22,852 nt of DNA, taken from IMG/VR virus record IMGVR_UViG_3300047562_000226, positions 1-22,852 of that record, one strand, 5' to 3'. Both the position numbers and the translations under genes were made by a program. The first letter of the stretch is position 1; each line of letters starts with the position of its first letter. Positions 7,780 through 22,632 of this stretch are shown here, piece by piece. The stretch is from a virus. Below the pieces are notes generated by a model. It had not been told where the DNA came from, searched no databases, and saw only the letters and a program-made list of their open reading frames with translations.

Positions 7780-8088
7780 ATGCAATGGAAATATGATGAA
7801 GACAAAATCCTCAAAGATGTTGAGGAATATGTTGTGAGCACATACCATAGTCACTACTGTGGTCATGAGCAATCCTCTCAAAGCATTCAAACGATTGACC
7901 TAATGGCAGCAAAAGAGCTTGCTTCTGATTTTTGTCAAGCAAACATTCTCAAATACGGTAGTCGCTACGGTGACAAAGATGGTCACAGCAAACGTGATTT
8001 GATGAAAGTGATTCATTATGCAATGCTTTTGCTACATTTTGACGGTCACTATTCTCGCACTAACAACGGTCTACAGGAGTTTAAATGA
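7780..8088 (+). CDS. DUF3310 (SaV-like) protein
   Basis: A 102-residue protein. Its core, FCQANILKYGSRYGDKDG (from about residue 51), followed by SKRDLMKVIHYAMLLLHF, matches the DUF3310 pattern: an (F/A)xxGNxxKYxxRxGxK element, then a helix with DLxKAxxY. DUF3310 proteins are small helical proteins common in phages and sometimes described as nucleotide-kinase- or pyrophosphohydrolase-like; biochemical activity is not settled. The usual Gly-Asn before the KY is Ala-Asn here. The ribosome site AAGGA lies 9 bases upstream. The stop overlaps the gene 45 start (ATGA at 8085), so it may be co-expressed with the clamp genes. Confidence 0.7.
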   Translation: MQWKYDEDKILKDVEEYVVSTYHSHYCGHEQSSQSIQTIDLMAAKELASDFCQANILKYGSRYGDKDGHSKRDLMKVIHYAMLLLHFDGHYSRTNNGLQEFK

Positions 8089-8747
8089 GTACTATTGCCC
8101 TTTCTAAAACCACAATCGACATTCTTAAAAATTTCTCTACAATCAATACATCGATTGTTATCAAAGAGGGCAACGTCCTACGCACAATTAGTAACGAGGA
8201 AAATATCCTTGCTACTGCTACTGTTGAGGAAACGTTTCCCCAAACCTTTGCTATCTATGACCTGACTCAGTTTCTTGCAGGTCTCTCACTCTTTGAGAAT
8301 CCCAGTCTAGTATTTGATAACGATGATTATCTGATTATCAAGTCTGGTCGCTCCCGAGTGAAATACTACTTTAGCGACCCTGAGATTACTCTCAAGACAG
8401 CACCCGATAAGAAAGTAAATTATCCTGGGTCTGATGTTACTTTCTCTCTGTCTGCTGGTGACCTGTCATCTCTCAACAAAGCATCTAATGTGTATAGATT
8501 GCCTGACTTTACGATTGAGACAGACGATGAGATTCTTCTGACTGTCCGTGACCTTGAGAATGATACCTCTCACGTTTATGACATTACTGTTAAAGGTGAG
8601 TTTGAAGGAAATCATAACCTTCACTTGAAGGTTGAAAATCTTCGACTGATGCAAGGCGATTATAATGTAGGTGCTTCCAAGCATCTGATTACAGAGTGGA
8701 AACATTCTGACCTTGACCTTACTTACTATATTGCACTTGAGCCTTGA
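8085..8747 (+). CDS. 45: DNA polymerase sliding clamp gp45
   Basis: A 220-residue protein with the length and pattern of T4 gp45 (228 residues), the trimeric ring that tethers the polymerase to DNA and, with gp55, activates late transcription. Recognisable parts include the opening LSKTTIDILKNFSTINTSIVIKEGN, a typical clamp first helix and strand, and repeated beta-strand blocks such as FAIYDLTQFLAGLSLF and YLIIKSGRSRVKYYF. There is no catalytic motif, as expected. CAGGAG (8074-8079) is a good ribosome site. It overlaps both neighbours by 1-4 bases, and the clamp loader gene follows at once, as in T4. Confidence 0.93.
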   Translation: MSTIALSKTTIDILKNFSTINTSIVIKEGNVLRTISNEENILATATVEETFPQTFAIYDLTQFLAGLSLFENPSLVFDNDDYLIIKSGRSRVKYYFSDPEITLKTAPDKKVNYPGSDVTFSLSAGDLSSLNKASNVYRLPDFTIETDDEILLTVRDLENDTSHVYDITVKGEFEGNHNLHLKVENLRLMQGDYNVGASKHLITEWKHSDLDLTYYIALEP

Positions 8748-16117: not shown

Positions 16118-17495
16118 AAGGATTGAAACAACTATTTTACGCAACCTCCTGTGCAACGAACAGTTTTACAGGAAGGTTGTGCCTTTCGTAAAACCAGATT
16201 ACTTTAATGAGATTCATGAAAAAGTAATCTATGAAGAGGTGTGGAATTTTGCTAGTAACTATGAGATGTTACCAACAGCAGAAGTCCTTATTATTAATTT
16301 GCAGAATAGAAAAGACTTAAATGAAGAAACTTATCAAGAGTCTGTTAAGACGATTCAATCCTTACACTCAGACCCAGTTGAATATAACTGGTTACTTGAC
16401 ACCACAGAGAAGTGGTGTAAAGACAGGGCAATCTATCTTGCCCTCCTCGATTCCATCAAAATCGCGGATGGAGGTAATACAAAAATATCAAAGGATGCGA
16501 TCCCAGCAATCTTACAAGAGGCCCTGGCAGTATCTTTCGACGAACATGTAGGTCATGATTACGTTGAGAATGTAGAGCAACGATATGATTTCTATCATTT
16601 AAAAGAAGATAAGATTCCGTTTGATTTAGAAAAATTCAATCTCATTACCAAAGGTGGTCTTCCTAATAAGACATTGAATGTTGCTCTTGCTGGCACTGGT
16701 GTTGGTAAGTCTTTATTCATGTGTCATTGTGCCGCCCAGGCACTGCAACAGGGAAAGAATGTTTTGTATATCACGCTTGAGATGGCGGAAGAAAAGATTG
16801 CCGAACGTATTGACGCCAATCTTTTGAATGTAAATATTAAAGATATCGGATCTCTTCCTGAAACTATCTTCACATCTCGCATTAGGGATATTGGTAGGAA
16901 GACAATGGGTAGACTTATCATTAAAGAATATCCAACTGCATCTGCACACGTCGGTCATTTCAAGTCTCTCCTCAATGAATTGCAACTTAAGAAAACGTTC
17001 AAACCAGATATTATATTCATCGATTATCTTAACATCTGCGCGAGTGCAAGGTATAAAGGCGCTATTGTCAATTCCTACACTTATGTTAAAGCGATTGCTG
17101 AAGAATTACGTGGCCTTGCTGTGGAACACAATGTACCTGTTGTCTCAGCGACGCAAACAACCCGTAGTGGTTTTGGCAATAGCGACGTGGATCTTACTGA
17201 TACTTCGGAATCCTTTGGTCTACCTGCTACTGCTGATTTCATGTTTGCTCTTATATCGACGGAGGATTTGGAGAAGGATGGTCACATCTTGGTTAAACAA
17301 CTTAAGAACCGATACAACGACCCAACCTTCAACAAAAGATTTTTGATTGGGGTTGACAGGGCGAAGATGAAACTGTATAATGTAGAGGTGCAAGACTCTT
17401 CCACCATCTTGATTGATGATGAAGAGTATGAGTATGAAGAGGAAAAACCTCAAAGTAAAAACAAGTTTAGTAAGTTTACAGAATTTATTGTATGA
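16110..17495 (+). CDS. 41: replicative DNA helicase gp41 (DnaB-type)
   Basis: A 461-residue DnaB-family helicase, the ring motor that unwinds the replication fork 5' to 3' and holds the primase. The P-loop is G195-TGVGKS201, followed by [18 protein letters not shown] (the DnaB motif 1a region). Walker B ends at D305 in IIFIDYLNI, and the H3/H4 region includes [13 protein letters not shown] and the arginine-finger area near KNRYNDP. Length agrees with T4 gp41 (475). The N-terminal 180 residues form the helical collar domain. An acidic C-terminal tail ([13 protein letters not shown]) may contact partners. The start overlaps uvsX by 8 bases, and the stop overlaps the next ATG (ATGA at 17492). 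Confidence 0.95.
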
Positions 17496-17917
17496 CAACA
17501 AGCACTATGACACGCAAGATTGATTTCTCTCGTTATGAAGAATTTGTGGCAGCAGTTACAAGCAATGCTTCTACGAACTTTGTTGACTTCGCTGACCGCA
17601 TTGGTGATCTGGATCGTCAAGGTGCCAATATTGAACGACTGCTTACTGCTGGCGTTGGTCTTAATGCTGAGGGCGGTGAGTTTCTTGAAATTATTAAGAA
17701 GATGGTATTCCAAGGCAAACCTTGGAATGAAGATAACCGTGAGCATCTTATCATTGAGTTGGGTGACGTTATGTGGTATGTCGCTCAAGCATGTATGGCA
17801 CTAGAAGTTTCTTTCGATGATGTGATTGCAACCAATGTCAAGAAACTGGAGAAGCGTTATCCTGAAGGGTCATTCGACCCATACTTCTCTGAGAATCGAG
17901 CAGCAGACGACCGTTGA
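17492..17917 (+). CDS. MazG-like nucleoside triphosphate pyrophosphohydrolase
   Basis: A 141-residue protein with the all-alpha NTP pyrophosphohydrolase pattern: E60-G-G-E63-F in GLNAEGGEF and E89-L-G-D92 in ELGDVMWYVAQ, corresponding to the ExxE...ExxD magnesium-binding set, then a helix with NVKKLEKRYP. The first acidic pair is the shorter ExxE rather than EExxE. Enzymes of this class split (d)NTPs to NMP and pyrophosphate; cyanophages are thought to use them to adjust nucleotide pools or alarmone levels. A second in-frame ATG (17507) could also be used. The start overlaps the gene 41 stop. A strong terminator begins 4 bases after its stop, closing the long replication operon. Confidence 0.85.
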   Translation: MTTSTMTRKIDFSRYEEFVAAVTSNASTNFVDFADRIGDLDRQGANIERLLTAGVGLNAEGGEFLEIIKKMVFQGKPWNEDNREHLIIELGDVMWYVAQACMALEVSFDDVIATNVKKLEKRYPEGSFDPYFSENRAADDR

Positions 17918-17921
17918 TTAT

Positions 17922-17954
17922 AACCTCCCCTAAATAATTAGAGGGAGGTTTTTT
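17922..17954 (+). terminator. terminator whose 3' arm is the next gene's ribosome site
   Basis: AACCTCCC (17922-17929) pairs with GGGAGGTT (17943-17950); CTAA/TTAG extend it around an ATAA loop with one bulged A (17942), followed by a T-run (17949-17954). The 3' arm AGGGAGG is also the Shine-Dalgarno of the gene at 17958, so in any read-through RNA the ribosome site would be paired. Confidence 0.85.
17929..17936 (+). promoter_or_regulatory. late-promoter-like CCTAAATA within the terminator hairpin
   Basis: CCTAAATA differs at one position from the NATAAATA late motif. By T4 spacing, transcription would start near 17942, after the 5' arm, leaving the Shine-Dalgarno (17943-17948) free. The match is imperfect and no start site is proven. 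Confidence 0.4.
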
Positions 17955-17957
17955 CTT

Positions 17958-19424
17958 ATGGCAAAGGCAACGGTATCTGTAGCACAAATAGTAAGTCCAG
18001 TACCTTCACAGTATAAGAATCAATTGAAAGCAATTTTAGATTCTGTTGATGGAAACAATTGGAGAAGACCTGAATCTGGGTCTGGCACTACGTTTCCTAA
18101 AAATGGACAGGGTGTATATATTATATACCTAGATGATTCTATGATGGCATCCCTCAGGCAGAAACATCCAGGTGGACAGAATGCTATTGTAAGTGGTAAA
18201 GAAGCATACTTGCTTCCTATAGGATCTCCTGCTAGAAAAATTTCTTTTAGAATTACTGGTAAGAAAGGTGGTGGAGCTGCTGATGCTAAAACTACCGCTG
18301 CTCAAGAAAGAGGGTCTATCTATATTTTTAGAAGAGTGCTTGCTAATAATAAAAGATATAGAAGTGCTGCTGATATCCGTAATGATACTCAAGCGTATAG
18401 AGCATTGGAAAGAATATGGAAGTTGTCTGGTTTAGAATTTGATGATGATTGGTTAGAAGATTATTATAAACAGTCTGCAACTATGTTGCAAAAATATGCT
18501 GATGCTTCCTTCACGGAATTCATTCGTGATGGTGGATTCATGAAATGGGTAACAGATTTAGTTAGAGAAAAGTATCAGATATCACAGAAAGATAATTGGA
18601 ATCCAGCCGATGTTTGGTTAGTTAAAAATCAAAGAAAGGTTATTAAAGATATAGAAGAATTAGTTGACGGTGGGCGTAGTCAAACTCTGGAAGAGTTGAA
18701 TGCTATCCTGAGAACATTATTTAAAGAAAAGATTGTAGTTGGTGTGTCACTGAAAAAAGTTTCTGGTAGCGTTGCTAGATGGGAAGAAGTAAACGTAGAT
18801 GAAGACCAATTTAAAGAATACGATAAGATGTATTATGAGGTTAGTGAGATACAATGTAATTTAAAATTAAAGACAGAAAAGGGTAAACTTACTTTTGGGA
18901 GTCAAGACTCTAGAGTATTTGTTAGCACAAACGTTGACACATTAAACTTTCAAATTAAAGCGAATGATTCTGCTGCTGTTAGTGGGTCCAATTTAAAATT
19001 CGAACCAACAGCATCTGGAGCAACTGCGGCAAGATTGGGTAAATCTCCAGTTGATATGGTGAGGAAACTTATGATTGATTATGGGATTACTTATGAAAGC
19101 AATCATCAAAGATATCCAAACGATGTTGCTTCGTTTCTAGATGTTGAAGATGATTACAAAAAGATGCTTGCGAAATTGATGAGTGCTAGAGGAGCATTTA
19201 AACCAGACTTTGGAATAGATGATGTAGATACTGCAATTAATAATATTACAATGGTGTTTGGCACTAATCCTCATGTTGCAAAATCTAAATTAATGCAGAT
19301 ACAGTTTTTGCATATGTTAGTAAGTCTTACCCCAGTCAAAAAAAGAAACATGTTTATGACTGACATGGGATTCCTAGCACAAAAGAAAGGAAGAAGATTT
19401 GGACCATTTGGAAAGCTTTACTGA
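17958..19424 (+). CDS. unknown 488-aa protein, possible PD-(D/E)XK-like nuclease
   Basis: I do not recognise this protein with certainty. Residues 1-120 hold short strands (GVYIIYLDD, AYLLPIG, KISFRITGK). The middle has a suggestive block: NPADVW with D218, then an ELNAILRTLFKEK helix, and GVSLKK with S264 and K266. A D...(S/E)xK arrangement on adjacent strands is how PD-(D/E)XK nucleases often look, and PAD(V/I)W...GxSLKK blocks occur in restriction-like phage proteins, so a nuclease fold is possible but unproven. The remainder is mixed, with a basic C-terminal end (KKGRRFGPFGKLY). Arginine is nearly all AGA, unlike the replication genes. Ribosome site AGGGAGG sits in the upstream hairpin. 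The stop overlaps the next start (TGATG), linking it to the KxDG protein. A virion role is an alternative. Confidence 0.7.
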   Translation: MAKATVSVAQIVSPVPSQYKNQLKAILDSVDGNNWRRPESGSGTTFPKNGQGVYIIYLDDSMMASLRQKHPGGQNAIVSGKEAYLLPIGSPARKISFRITGKKGGGAADAKTTAAQERGSIYIFRRVLANNKRYRSAADIRNDTQAYRALERIWKLSGLEFDDDWLEDYYKQSATMLQKYADASFTEFIRDGGFMKWVTDLVREKYQISQKDNWNPADVWLVKNQRKVIKDIEELVDGGRSQTLEELNAILRTLFKEKIVVGVSLKKVSGSVARWEEVNVDEDQFKEYDKMYYEVSEIQCNLKLKTEKGKLTFGSQDSRVFVSTNVDTLNFQIKANDSAAVSGSNLKFEPTASGATAARLGKSPVDMVRKLMIDYGITYESNHQRYPNDVASFLDVEDDYKKMLAKLMSARGAFKPDFGIDDVDTAINNITMVFGTNPHVAKSKLMQIQFLHMLVSLTPVKKRNMFMTDMGFLAQKKGRRFGPFGKLY

Positions 19425-20638
19425 TGAGCAAGAATACACACCTAGAGCACTTAGAAGATAGTATCTTGTTTGATGGCAAGCAAGGTGCAGTAGATGCATT
19501 TAAATTCTTGGATTTGCTTGCACAAACATTCTCTGGCAAAGCAACGAATAACTTCAAGATTACTACTAAGTGGGATGGAGCTCCTGCAATTTTTTGTGGA
19601 CAATATCCAGGCACAAAAACATTTTTTGTCGGCACTAAATCTATCTTTAATAAAGATTCAAAAGTTAATACAACACCAGAAGACATTGAAGCTAATCATG
19701 GTCATGCTCCAGGACTTGTTGCGAAGTTGAAAGACGCTCTCAAATATTTTCCACAATTAGATGTAAAAGGAGTCGCACAGGGAGACCTGTTATTTACTGA
19801 TGACAAAAAATTTGAAATGATTGATGGTAAAAGATGTATTACTTTTAAACCAAATACCATTACATATTCTATACCAGAAGATAGTGAGTTATATGAAAAG
19901 GCGAGAAGAGCAAAAATAGGAGTTGTATTTCATACAACATACAGAGGAAATTCTATTGATTCTTTGTCTGCTACTTTTGGATATGATGTATCGAAATTAA
20001 AAGATGTTGATGATGTATTAGTTTTGTCTGCAGAGACTGGTCAGTTAGGAAAAGATGTTTTACTTACTGATAATGAAAAAGTAAAACTATCTAGAATGAA
20101 AGGTGCTAGTGCAAACCTAGTCAGAGCAACTGGAAATTTTTTAGATGAAGTTGCCGCACAAATAGAAGCAAACGATCAATTGACTGTGGGACCTAGATTA
20201 AAAATTTATTTCAACTCATACGTTAGACAAGGACGTAGAGTAAATAATGCTAAACAATTTGTTTCTAACTTTGAAAAATATTTTGAGGACGAAGTAAAAA
20301 AAGCAGCTGATAAAGTAAAGACACCAAAAGCAAAAGCAAGTAAATTAAAAAAATTGTATGATGGGTTAGAGTTTATTGAAAATAATAAATCCGAATTGAC
20401 TAAAGCAGTTGCCCTATATACAACGTTGCAGAATGCGAAAACATTTTTTGTGCGTAAGTTAGAGAAAGGTGAAAAGATTGGGACATATTTAAAAACGGAT
20501 GATGGGTATAAGATAACTGCGCCAGAAGGATATGTTGCTATTAGCAATGATAGAAATGCTGTTAAGTTAGTTGATAGATTATCATTCAGTGTTGCAAACT
20601 TTAATGTATCTAAAGATTGGGTGTCAGGAGATAAATGA
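19424..20638 (+). CDS. KxDG nucleotidyltransferase-like protein (DUF6267-like)
   Basis: A 404-residue protein with K49-W-D-G52 in KITTKWDGAPAIFCG, which looks like motif I of the ligase and capping-enzyme superfamily (KxDG, where the lysine takes the nucleotide). Further on, AQG120-D-LLFTDD resembles motif III (DGEL-like), and ITFKPNTITYSIP and KIGVVFHTTYRG could hold later motifs, but a clear motif IV/V is not obvious. The C-terminal third is helical and lysine-rich. I recall this KWDGxPA pattern from cyanophage proteins labelled DUF6267, function unknown. Eleven of 13 arginine codons are AGA. It overlaps both neighbours by 1-4 bases and is followed by an HxGH enzyme. Nucleotidyl transfer is inference; a degenerate member is possible. 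Confidence 0.75.
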   Translation: MSKNTHLEHLEDSILFDGKQGAVDAFKFLDLLAQTFSGKATNNFKITTKWDGAPAIFCGQYPGTKTFFVGTKSIFNKDSKVNTTPEDIEANHGHAPGLVAKLKDALKYFPQLDVKGVAQGDLLFTDDKKFEMIDGKRCITFKPNTITYSIPEDSELYEKARRAKIGVVFHTTYRGNSIDSLSATFGYDVSKLKDVDDVLVLSAETGQLGKDVLLTDNEKVKLSRMKGASANLVRATGNFLDEVAAQIEANDQLTVGPRLKIYFNSYVRQGRRVNNAKQFVSNFEKYFEDEVKKAADKVKTPKAKASKLKKLYDGLEFIENNKSELTKAVALYTTLQNAKTFFVRKLEKGEKIGTYLKTDDGYKITAPEGYVAISNDRNAVKLVDRLSFSVANFNVSKDWVSGDK

Positions 20639-21183
20639 GTAGAGTAGTAGTAGCGTGGGGAAGATTTAACCCACCAACAATCGGTCATCAAAAATTAATT
20701 GAAGCAGTTGCTAAGATTGCTAAGGGAGACGATTACTTCATCTACCCTACTCATACTCAGAAGAAACCTAAAGATCCTCTTCCATCCAATATGAAAGTAG
20801 ATTATATGAAGAAGATGTTTCCAAAACATGCTTCGCATATTATTTACAATAAAGAGATTAATACTATCATTAAATTACTGCAAGAATATCAGGGCACTTA
20901 TACTGAATTGACATTGGTGGCTGGGTCTGATAGAATACCTAGTTATAAAGAGCTTTTAAATAAATACAATGGTGTAGAATATACATATAAGAATCTTAAT
21001 GTTGTTTCTGCTGGAGAGCGTGACCCAGATTCTGATGGTGCATCTGGAATGTCTGCTAGCAAGATGAGAGCAGCAGCAAAAGACGGAGACTTTAAATCAT
21101 TCAGGAGTGGTATTGCTGACACACTAGATGATAACGAAAAGATGGAATTAATGTTAGAAGTACGTAAAGGAATGGGATTATGA
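20635..21183 (+). CDS. HxGH-motif nucleotidylyltransferase (cytidylyl-/NMN adenylyl-like)
   Basis: A 182-residue protein of the HIGH nucleotidylyltransferase superfamily. The first strand and loop read WGRFNPPTIGHQKL (residues 8-21): the T/HxGH element is T15-I-G-H18. A second motif, S140-A-S-K-M-R145, matches the (I)SxTxxR element that holds the triphosphate. Between them is the Rossmann-type LTLVAGSDR. Relatives make NAD (NMN adenylyltransferase), CDP-alcohols or FAD; cyanophage copies are often labelled cytidylyltransferase, and the true substrate is not clear. The first His of HxGH is Thr, as in some members. The start overlaps the previous stop (ATGAG), and the stop overlaps the next ATG. 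Confidence 0.85.
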   Translation: MSRVVVAWGRFNPPTIGHQKLIEAVAKIAKGDDYFIYPTHTQKKPKDPLPSNMKVDYMKKMFPKHASHIIYNKEINTIIKLLQEYQGTYTELTLVAGSDRIPSYKELLNKYNGVEYTYKNLNVVSAGERDPDSDGASGMSASKMRAAAKDGDFKSFRSGIADTLDDNEKMELMLEVRKGMGL

Positions 21184-22450: not shown

Positions 22451-22611
22451 TTACCTGTTTTCTGACGAACTGGGGTGTCACAATAGTTCTTGGATTTCTG
22501 TTATCATTATCTGAATGGTTAGCAAAAACTAAAAGAACGGAAGCAAACGGTATCTTAGATTTCACTCAAACATTTCTAAGAAACGTATTACGTAAGGGAG
22601 ACTCTAAATAG
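22447..22611 (+). CDS. 54-aa small membrane protein
   Basis: A 54-residue protein with one probable transmembrane helix, about residues 8-24 (WGVTIVLGFLLSLSEWL), followed by a positively charged, polar tail (AKTKRTEANG...FLRNVLRKGDSK). By the positive-inside rule the C-terminus would be in the cytoplasm. Small single-helix late proteins of this kind can be holin-, spanin- or virion-related, but nothing here proves it. It starts within the stop of the 57-residue gene. Its last codons (TCT AAA TAG) lie in the loop of the terminator at 22597. Confidence 0.65.
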   Translation: MITCFLTNWGVTIVLGFLLSLSEWLAKTKRTEANGILDFTQTFLRNVLRKGDSK

Positions 22612-22625
22612 GGTCTCCTTTTTTT
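22597..22625 (+). terminator. terminator after the small-protein pair
   Basis: GGAGAC (22597-22602) pairs with GTCTCC (22613-22618) around a 10-base loop containing the stop codon of the 54-aa gene, followed by seven T (22619-22625). The last T is the first base of the late promoter TATAAATA. Confidence 0.8.
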
Positions 22626-22632
22626 ATAAATA
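22625..22632 (+). promoter_or_regulatory. late promoter TATAAATA for the final gene
   Basis: Exact T4 late consensus, fused to the T-run of the preceding terminator; initiation near 22638. Ribosome site AGGGAGAAG (22657-22665) precedes ATG 22670. Confidence 0.7.

Follow-up and report, generated by a model that had tools for sequence, protein, structure and literature searches.

The window (the whole stretch of 22,852 nucleotides) comes from a T4-like cyanophage, of which it represents 22.8 kb, and its analysis revealed a 36-base element at 17922-17957 that appears to pack a terminator, a late promoter motif and the ribosome site of the next gene together. We propose that this element is probably a terminator gate that cancels itself, which is the best explanation of its features. 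In the proposed mechanism, polymerase arriving from the replication operon would transcribe both arms of a hairpin, which together with a U6 tract would stop most transcripts after mazG; in transcripts leaking through, the 3' arm would sequester the next gene's ribosome site. In the late phase of infection, a polymerase directed by gp55 and gp45 would start at about 17942 from the CCTAAATA box in the hairpin. Because the 5' arm would be absent from this late RNA, it would neither terminate at the U tract nor hide AGGGAGG, and the late block would be transcribed and translated. The late start, the termination efficiency and the timing of translation are what we infer in this scheme, and the anatomy, the validity of the motif, the conserved layout, the compensatory arm changes and the calculated unmasking are what the data below show. 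The hairpin has the look of a strong terminator as well, so that masking of translation may concern leak-through RNA only.

The GC-rich hairpin and its U6 tract occupy 17922-17954 on the plus strand, and the ATG of the next gene lies at 17958. RNA folding places the 5' arm AACCTCCCCTAA, carried by read-through RNA only, at 17922-17933, followed by the loop ATAA (17934-17937), the 3' arm TTAG-A-GGGAGGTT with A17942 unpaired (17938-17950), the remainder of TTTTTTCTT, and the ATG. The late promoter motif CCTAAATA (17929-17936) is nested in the 5' arm and loop, the Shine-Dalgarno sequence AGGGAGG (17942-17948) is located within the 3' arm, and the U6 tract (17949-17954) also forms the spacer between the Shine-Dalgarno sequence and the ATG. 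A preliminary description of this DNA had reported a hairpin with the Shine-Dalgarno sequence in its 3' arm and a late motif across its 5' arm and loop, and each of these elements was found at its coordinates. As in an intrinsic terminator, the stable stem runs directly into the U run. The minimum free energy of the hairpin RNA is -15.6 kcal/mol (z = -3.5), and none of 200 dinucleotide shuffles was equally stable. Neither Rfam families nor tRNAs were found in the window.

The motif in the hairpin, CTAAATA, had been described as one mismatch away from the late motif, and it proved to be a bona fide late-promoter form. In 2004 ORFs called on 20 kb segments from eight cyanophage genomes, ATAAATA occurs 155 times in the region from -75 to -6 against 8.8 expected (17.7-fold), and CTAAATA 85 times against 8.6 expected (9.9-fold), both sharing one peak 20-40 nt before the start codon. 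GTAAATA and TTAAATA are enriched 2.4-fold and 2.9-fold before genes of the same genomes, and the C form makes up 85 of the 282 TAAATA sites upstream of genes. In Aeromonas phage Aeh1, CTAAATA likewise serves as the published late consensus and begins at -12 (PMC1524935). The mismatch of CTAAATA to NATAAATA is therefore a known functional form, on account of both its enrichment before genes and the Aeh1 consensus. Similar to the cyanophage late promoter NATAAATA described for S-PM2 and Syn9, the motif belongs to the same class and takes the same position before late genes; the published consensus omits the C form, and the passages found make no mention of terminator nesting (PMC2984593). Cyanophage late promoters thus include CTAAATA, which was left out of the NATAAATA consensus. 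The octamer N(A/C)TAAATA, which marks gp55-type late promoters at a set distance before late genes, is present here, and gp55 is encoded in the window. The T4 late motif covers -13 to -6 (PMC1524935), and this register puts the predicted start at 17942, in agreement with the start near 17942 suggested earlier; the predicted late RNA would consequently lack the 5' arm.

Calculation of the cost of opening the region from the Shine-Dalgarno sequence to the ATG gave 17.2 kcal/mol in read-through RNA, in which AGGGAGG is paired in the 3' arm, versus 2.9 kcal/mol in the late RNA. Every start from 17929 to 17947 unmasks the ribosome site, with a cost of at most 3.6 kcal/mol. By the same calculation the cost drops from 16.1 to 3.8 or 0.9 kcal/mol in T4 e, from 15.5 to 2.8 kcal/mol in T4 gene 49 and from 16.2 to 5.7 kcal/mol in T4 segB. 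The T4 logic invoked for the element, with e and 49 as examples, is thus borne out at the level of calculation, as these genes and segB act like the window, where the cost falls from about 17 to about 3. For T4 e, published work gives a 100-fold reduction by structured RNA. Across cyanophage late promoters in general, unmasking by late starts did not differ from controls (p = 0.07), so that the unmasking is locus-specific, and a general law that all cyanophage late promoters unmask ribosome sites was ruled out.

The leader of T4 e (lysozyme) resembles the window: its loop contains TATAAATA and its 3' arm AGGAGG, an ATG lies close behind, the late RNA is without the 5' arm, and the unmasking is of the same size. 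Its ACCTTCTATAAATACTTAGGAGGT resembles cyanophage relatives such as ACCTTCCCTAAATACCTAGGGGAGGT. In T4 e, however, the stem runs into ATTATG with no U tract, hence no terminator, it precedes a different gene, and an additional TATAAATA lies upstream, whereas the window has a GC-rich stem and a U run as the spacer between ribosome site and ATG, a pairing that is rare at other genes. Judged from these sequences, the element would work like the hairpin-gated late genes of T4 (e, soc, 49 and I-TevI).

The window encodes relatives of a gp55-type late sigma factor, gp45, gp44, gp43, UvsX, gp46 and RegA, then gp41 and MazG. The gp55-type factor (729-1220, phrog_234, 6.4e-68), required for the proposed late start, and the gp45-type sliding clamp (8085-8747, phrog_223, 7.3e-75), a co-activator of T4-type late transcription, are both on the plus strand, as are the genes flanking the hairpin. 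Upstream, mazG (17492-17917, Pfam MazG, 2.2e-10) is the last gene of the replication operon. A perfect sigma-70-like TTGACA-17-TATAAT is located at 17353-17381 inside the 3' end of gp41 and is partly kept in relatives L040 and L046; it possibly reflects coding constraint only, or a promoter for mazG. The late-side block sits behind gp43-uvsX-gp41-mazG on the same strand. It comprises a gene for a 488 aa protein (17958-19424, phrog_1462), a DUF6267 gene (19424-20638, Pfam PF19782, 8.8e-127) and a cytidylyltransferase-like gene (20635-21183, T4-GC190), after which comes a virion protein gene. Relatives of T4-GC190 were found in S-SM1 virions (PMC3037559), which together with the following virion protein gene points to a block that is late at least in part. 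The element had been placed at the exact early/late border. A late block does start here, but it is only a short late island; since gp61, nrdA and nrdB follow a few genes further downstream in annotated relatives, the border is that of this island.

The first genes behind the border fall into at least three unrelated families among the relatives, so the module belongs to the position. The first gene is swapped among unrelated, mostly uncharacterised families and DUF6267 and the cytidylyltransferase stay, forming a small replacement hotspot. Searches of Pfam, PDB sequences and PDB folds with the 488 aa protein gave nothing significant, and its assignment as a PD-(D/E)XK nuclease from SLKK motifs was dropped on that ground. 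A sequence-pattern search of viral_contigs for relatives of this protein found none; other loci nevertheless show that relatives exist. The structure model of a second first-gene family was too poor for use.

Relatives of the border were collected as 80 loci fetched through DUF6267, which is encoded by the second gene past the hairpin, blind to the hairpin itself. The start of the gene before DUF6267 is on the contig in 64 of them; these relatives are fairly close, with DUF6267 71-87% identical, and the 64 loci are therefore not independent events. A late motif stands just before the first gene in 64 of 64 loci (63 by script, L319 by eye). A T-tailed hairpin straddles the predicted start in 60 of the 64, and in the remaining four (L280, L281, L287, L288) the hairpin lacks a T tract. 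The arms vary and show compensatory changes, examples being CCTCCCC/GGGGAGG, CCTTCCC/GGGGAGG, CCTCTCC/GGAGAGG, CCTTCCC/GGGAAGG and CCCTCCAC/GTGGGGGG, and the loop reads ATAA, ATAC, ATAG, GTAA or GTGA. Alignments of the border stems show weak covariation, the 3' arm being held constant by the ribosome site. The preliminary description had singled out compensatory arm changes and the TAAATA core as the points to compare in relatives: the hairpin is retained through changed arms and the core is retained, with one clade having the motif outside the stem.

This clade (L313, L328 and others) is the only one with a hairpin lacking TAAATA. It carries AATAAATA directly 5' of the stem, followed by CCCCC-GTAA-GGGGG, and its late RNA is predicted to begin with the first base of the loop, 16 nt ahead of the ATG. 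As AATAAATA adjoins the 5' end of the stem, RNA from this predicted start would still be devoid of the 5' arm. In both architectures, whether the motif occupies the loop or adjoins the stem on its 5' side, the start is predicted at the loop or just beyond it, mostly 13-20 nt before the ATG. This suggests that the conserved thing is the start site and not the RNA loop, for which the L313/L328 clade is the cleanest evidence. In the L044/L050 clade the arms are flipped and the 3' arm CCCCC has no ribosome site, so masking is not universal. In some relatives an extra ATAAATA upstream of the hairpin counts against the gate, as a transcript from there includes the hairpin. L324, L333, L043 and L075 have an extra GTATAAATA about 14 nt upstream, and a start at this site would still transcribe the whole hairpin. 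The nested form is absent at the mazG border in S-PM2, S-ShM2, S-CRM01 and other phages. In S-PM2 and S-CRM01 a terminator comes first and AATAAATA follows it as a distinct element, and in S-ShM2 CTAAATA stands with no hairpin; the nested form is thus one of several solutions. Isolates that do carry the element include Syn1, S-RSM4, S-MbCM7 and S-CAM1.

In the eight genomes, a strong T-tailed straddling hairpin was found at 7 of 156 late-motif genes, and the cases concentrate at repeated loci. Genome-wide, the count for late motifs inside terminators was 9 of 404, no more than in the flanks, and an enrichment of this kind was rejected. Upstream of gene 13, the motif is present in 43 of 43 distinct sequences, roughly half of which hold it as a terminator loop. 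These gp13 hairpins covary, with 16 cells changed on both sides among 15 aligned sequences and 0 of 500 shuffles as high. Examples in which the late motif is the terminator loop before this neck-protein gene, with covarying arms, are L427:2204-2257, L428 and L429. A scan for late motifs directly 5' of the stem (type B), with a pattern containing no ATG, returned 43 distinct sites, of which 40 have an ATG 2-6 nt past the pattern. Of the type B sites tested, some stand ahead of a RusA-like Holliday junction resolvase (phrog_244) or of SegE-type GIY-YIG endonucleases (PF19835, 1.6e-51), and others lie at the mazG border, where still different first genes follow. The predicted late RNA of type B units begins at the first loop base. 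Before RusA-like or SegE-type genes, L604, L553, L570, L582 and L606 show the order late motif, CCTCC, loop, GGAGG, TTTTTT, ATG.

A scan of T4 for a late motif with a straddling T-tailed hairpin, run blind to annotation, picked out gene 49 and segB and nothing else; for both, hairpin gating has been described or implicated (PMC3014915, PMC2988022). In the leaders of gene 49 (endonuclease VII) and segB the late motif lies at the 5' base of the stem, and the stem hides the start region. Gene 49 and the seg genes parallel the type B units before the RusA-like resolvase and the SegE-type nucleases; they differ in a weak or absent U tract, and the cyanophage resolvase is RusA-like, not endonuclease VII. 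The hairpins of Aeh1 mobE and T4 I-TevI likewise hide the ribosome site in read-through RNA, and the late promoter excludes the 5' arm (PMC2988022); Aeh1 also uses a CTAAATA late motif (PMC1524935). Unlike the window, they belong to homing endonuclease genes and have no terminator function reported in the literature searched. Among the papers searchable without subscription, none was found to describe a late promoter nested in a terminator, and within this literature the fusion of a T4-type hairpin gate and an intrinsic terminator appears to be new.

The element might instead be a compact terminator and late promoter that only insulates transcription units, with a G-rich 3' arm that is convenient and a masking without regulatory role. 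The gene 13 version, which nests the motif in the terminator loop with no obvious ribosome site in the stem and has virion genes among its upstream genes, fits this explanation, as do the flipped arms of the L044/L050 clade and the tandem terminator-TATAAATA units such as that before T4-GC537. We nevertheless consider it unlikely, since at the mazG border the ribosome site lies within nearly every stem, 13-18 nt past the predicted start, and the same holds for the type B units ahead of RusA-like and SegE-like nucleases, in parallel to T4 gene 49 and the seg genes. An RNA operator, in which a phage protein of RegA or gp43 type binds the hairpin loop and represses translation, is very unlikely: a RegA relative is encoded in the window and T4 gp43 binds a hairpin (PMC3014915), but the loop bases change among the relatives, and type B relatives have TAAATA outside the hairpin with the start-codon spacing kept. 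An ordinary terminator with coincidental TAAATA and ribosome-site overlaps agrees with the genome-wide count and is still hardly credible, because 60 of 64 relatives, collected without regard to the layout, retain it, as do three further loci, T6 occurs at most 16 nt upstream of only 25 of the 2004 gene starts, and in a scan with the pattern CCTCCC-N8..22-GGGAGG-T6, loop letters left free, an ATG follows within 9 nt in 25 of 26 hairpins with TAAATA versus 7 of 65 without it (Fisher p = 5e-15).

The self-cancelling gate would extend the mechanism of T4 e, 49 and I-TevI to abundant marine cyanophages, with termination added to one element, so that termination and translation would both depend on a single choice of start site. 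In its reuse ahead of a Holliday junction resolvase and of GIY-YIG nucleases, the device has its parallel in T4 gene 49 and the T4 homing endonucleases. We lean towards the wider view that self-cancelling terminators of 30-35 nt form a class in cyanomyoviruses that is tied to position; these elements would block upstream transcription and translation, be erased when the inner late promoter fires, be reused before unrelated genes (at the mazG border, gene 13, the RusA-like resolvase and the SegE-like nucleases) and persist while the gene behind is swapped. Temporal control in cyanophages becomes directly testable with a 36-nt reporter.

In the contigs L125, L127, L140 and L142 (155-412 kb), TATAAATA lies inside a terminator of CCTCCCACC/GGTGGGAGG type before a gene resembling a Dam-type methylase; this likeness may be due to chance, as the motif is rare there and the DNA is AT-rich. 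The window contains a second terminator at 22594-22632, whose T tract runs straight into TATAAATA before the gene at the position of T4-GC537 (virion protein), and the same tandem unit is present in Syn1, S-RSM4, S-PM2, S-MbCM7 and S-CAM1. A CTAAATA in the loop of this terminator overlaps the upstream stop codon.
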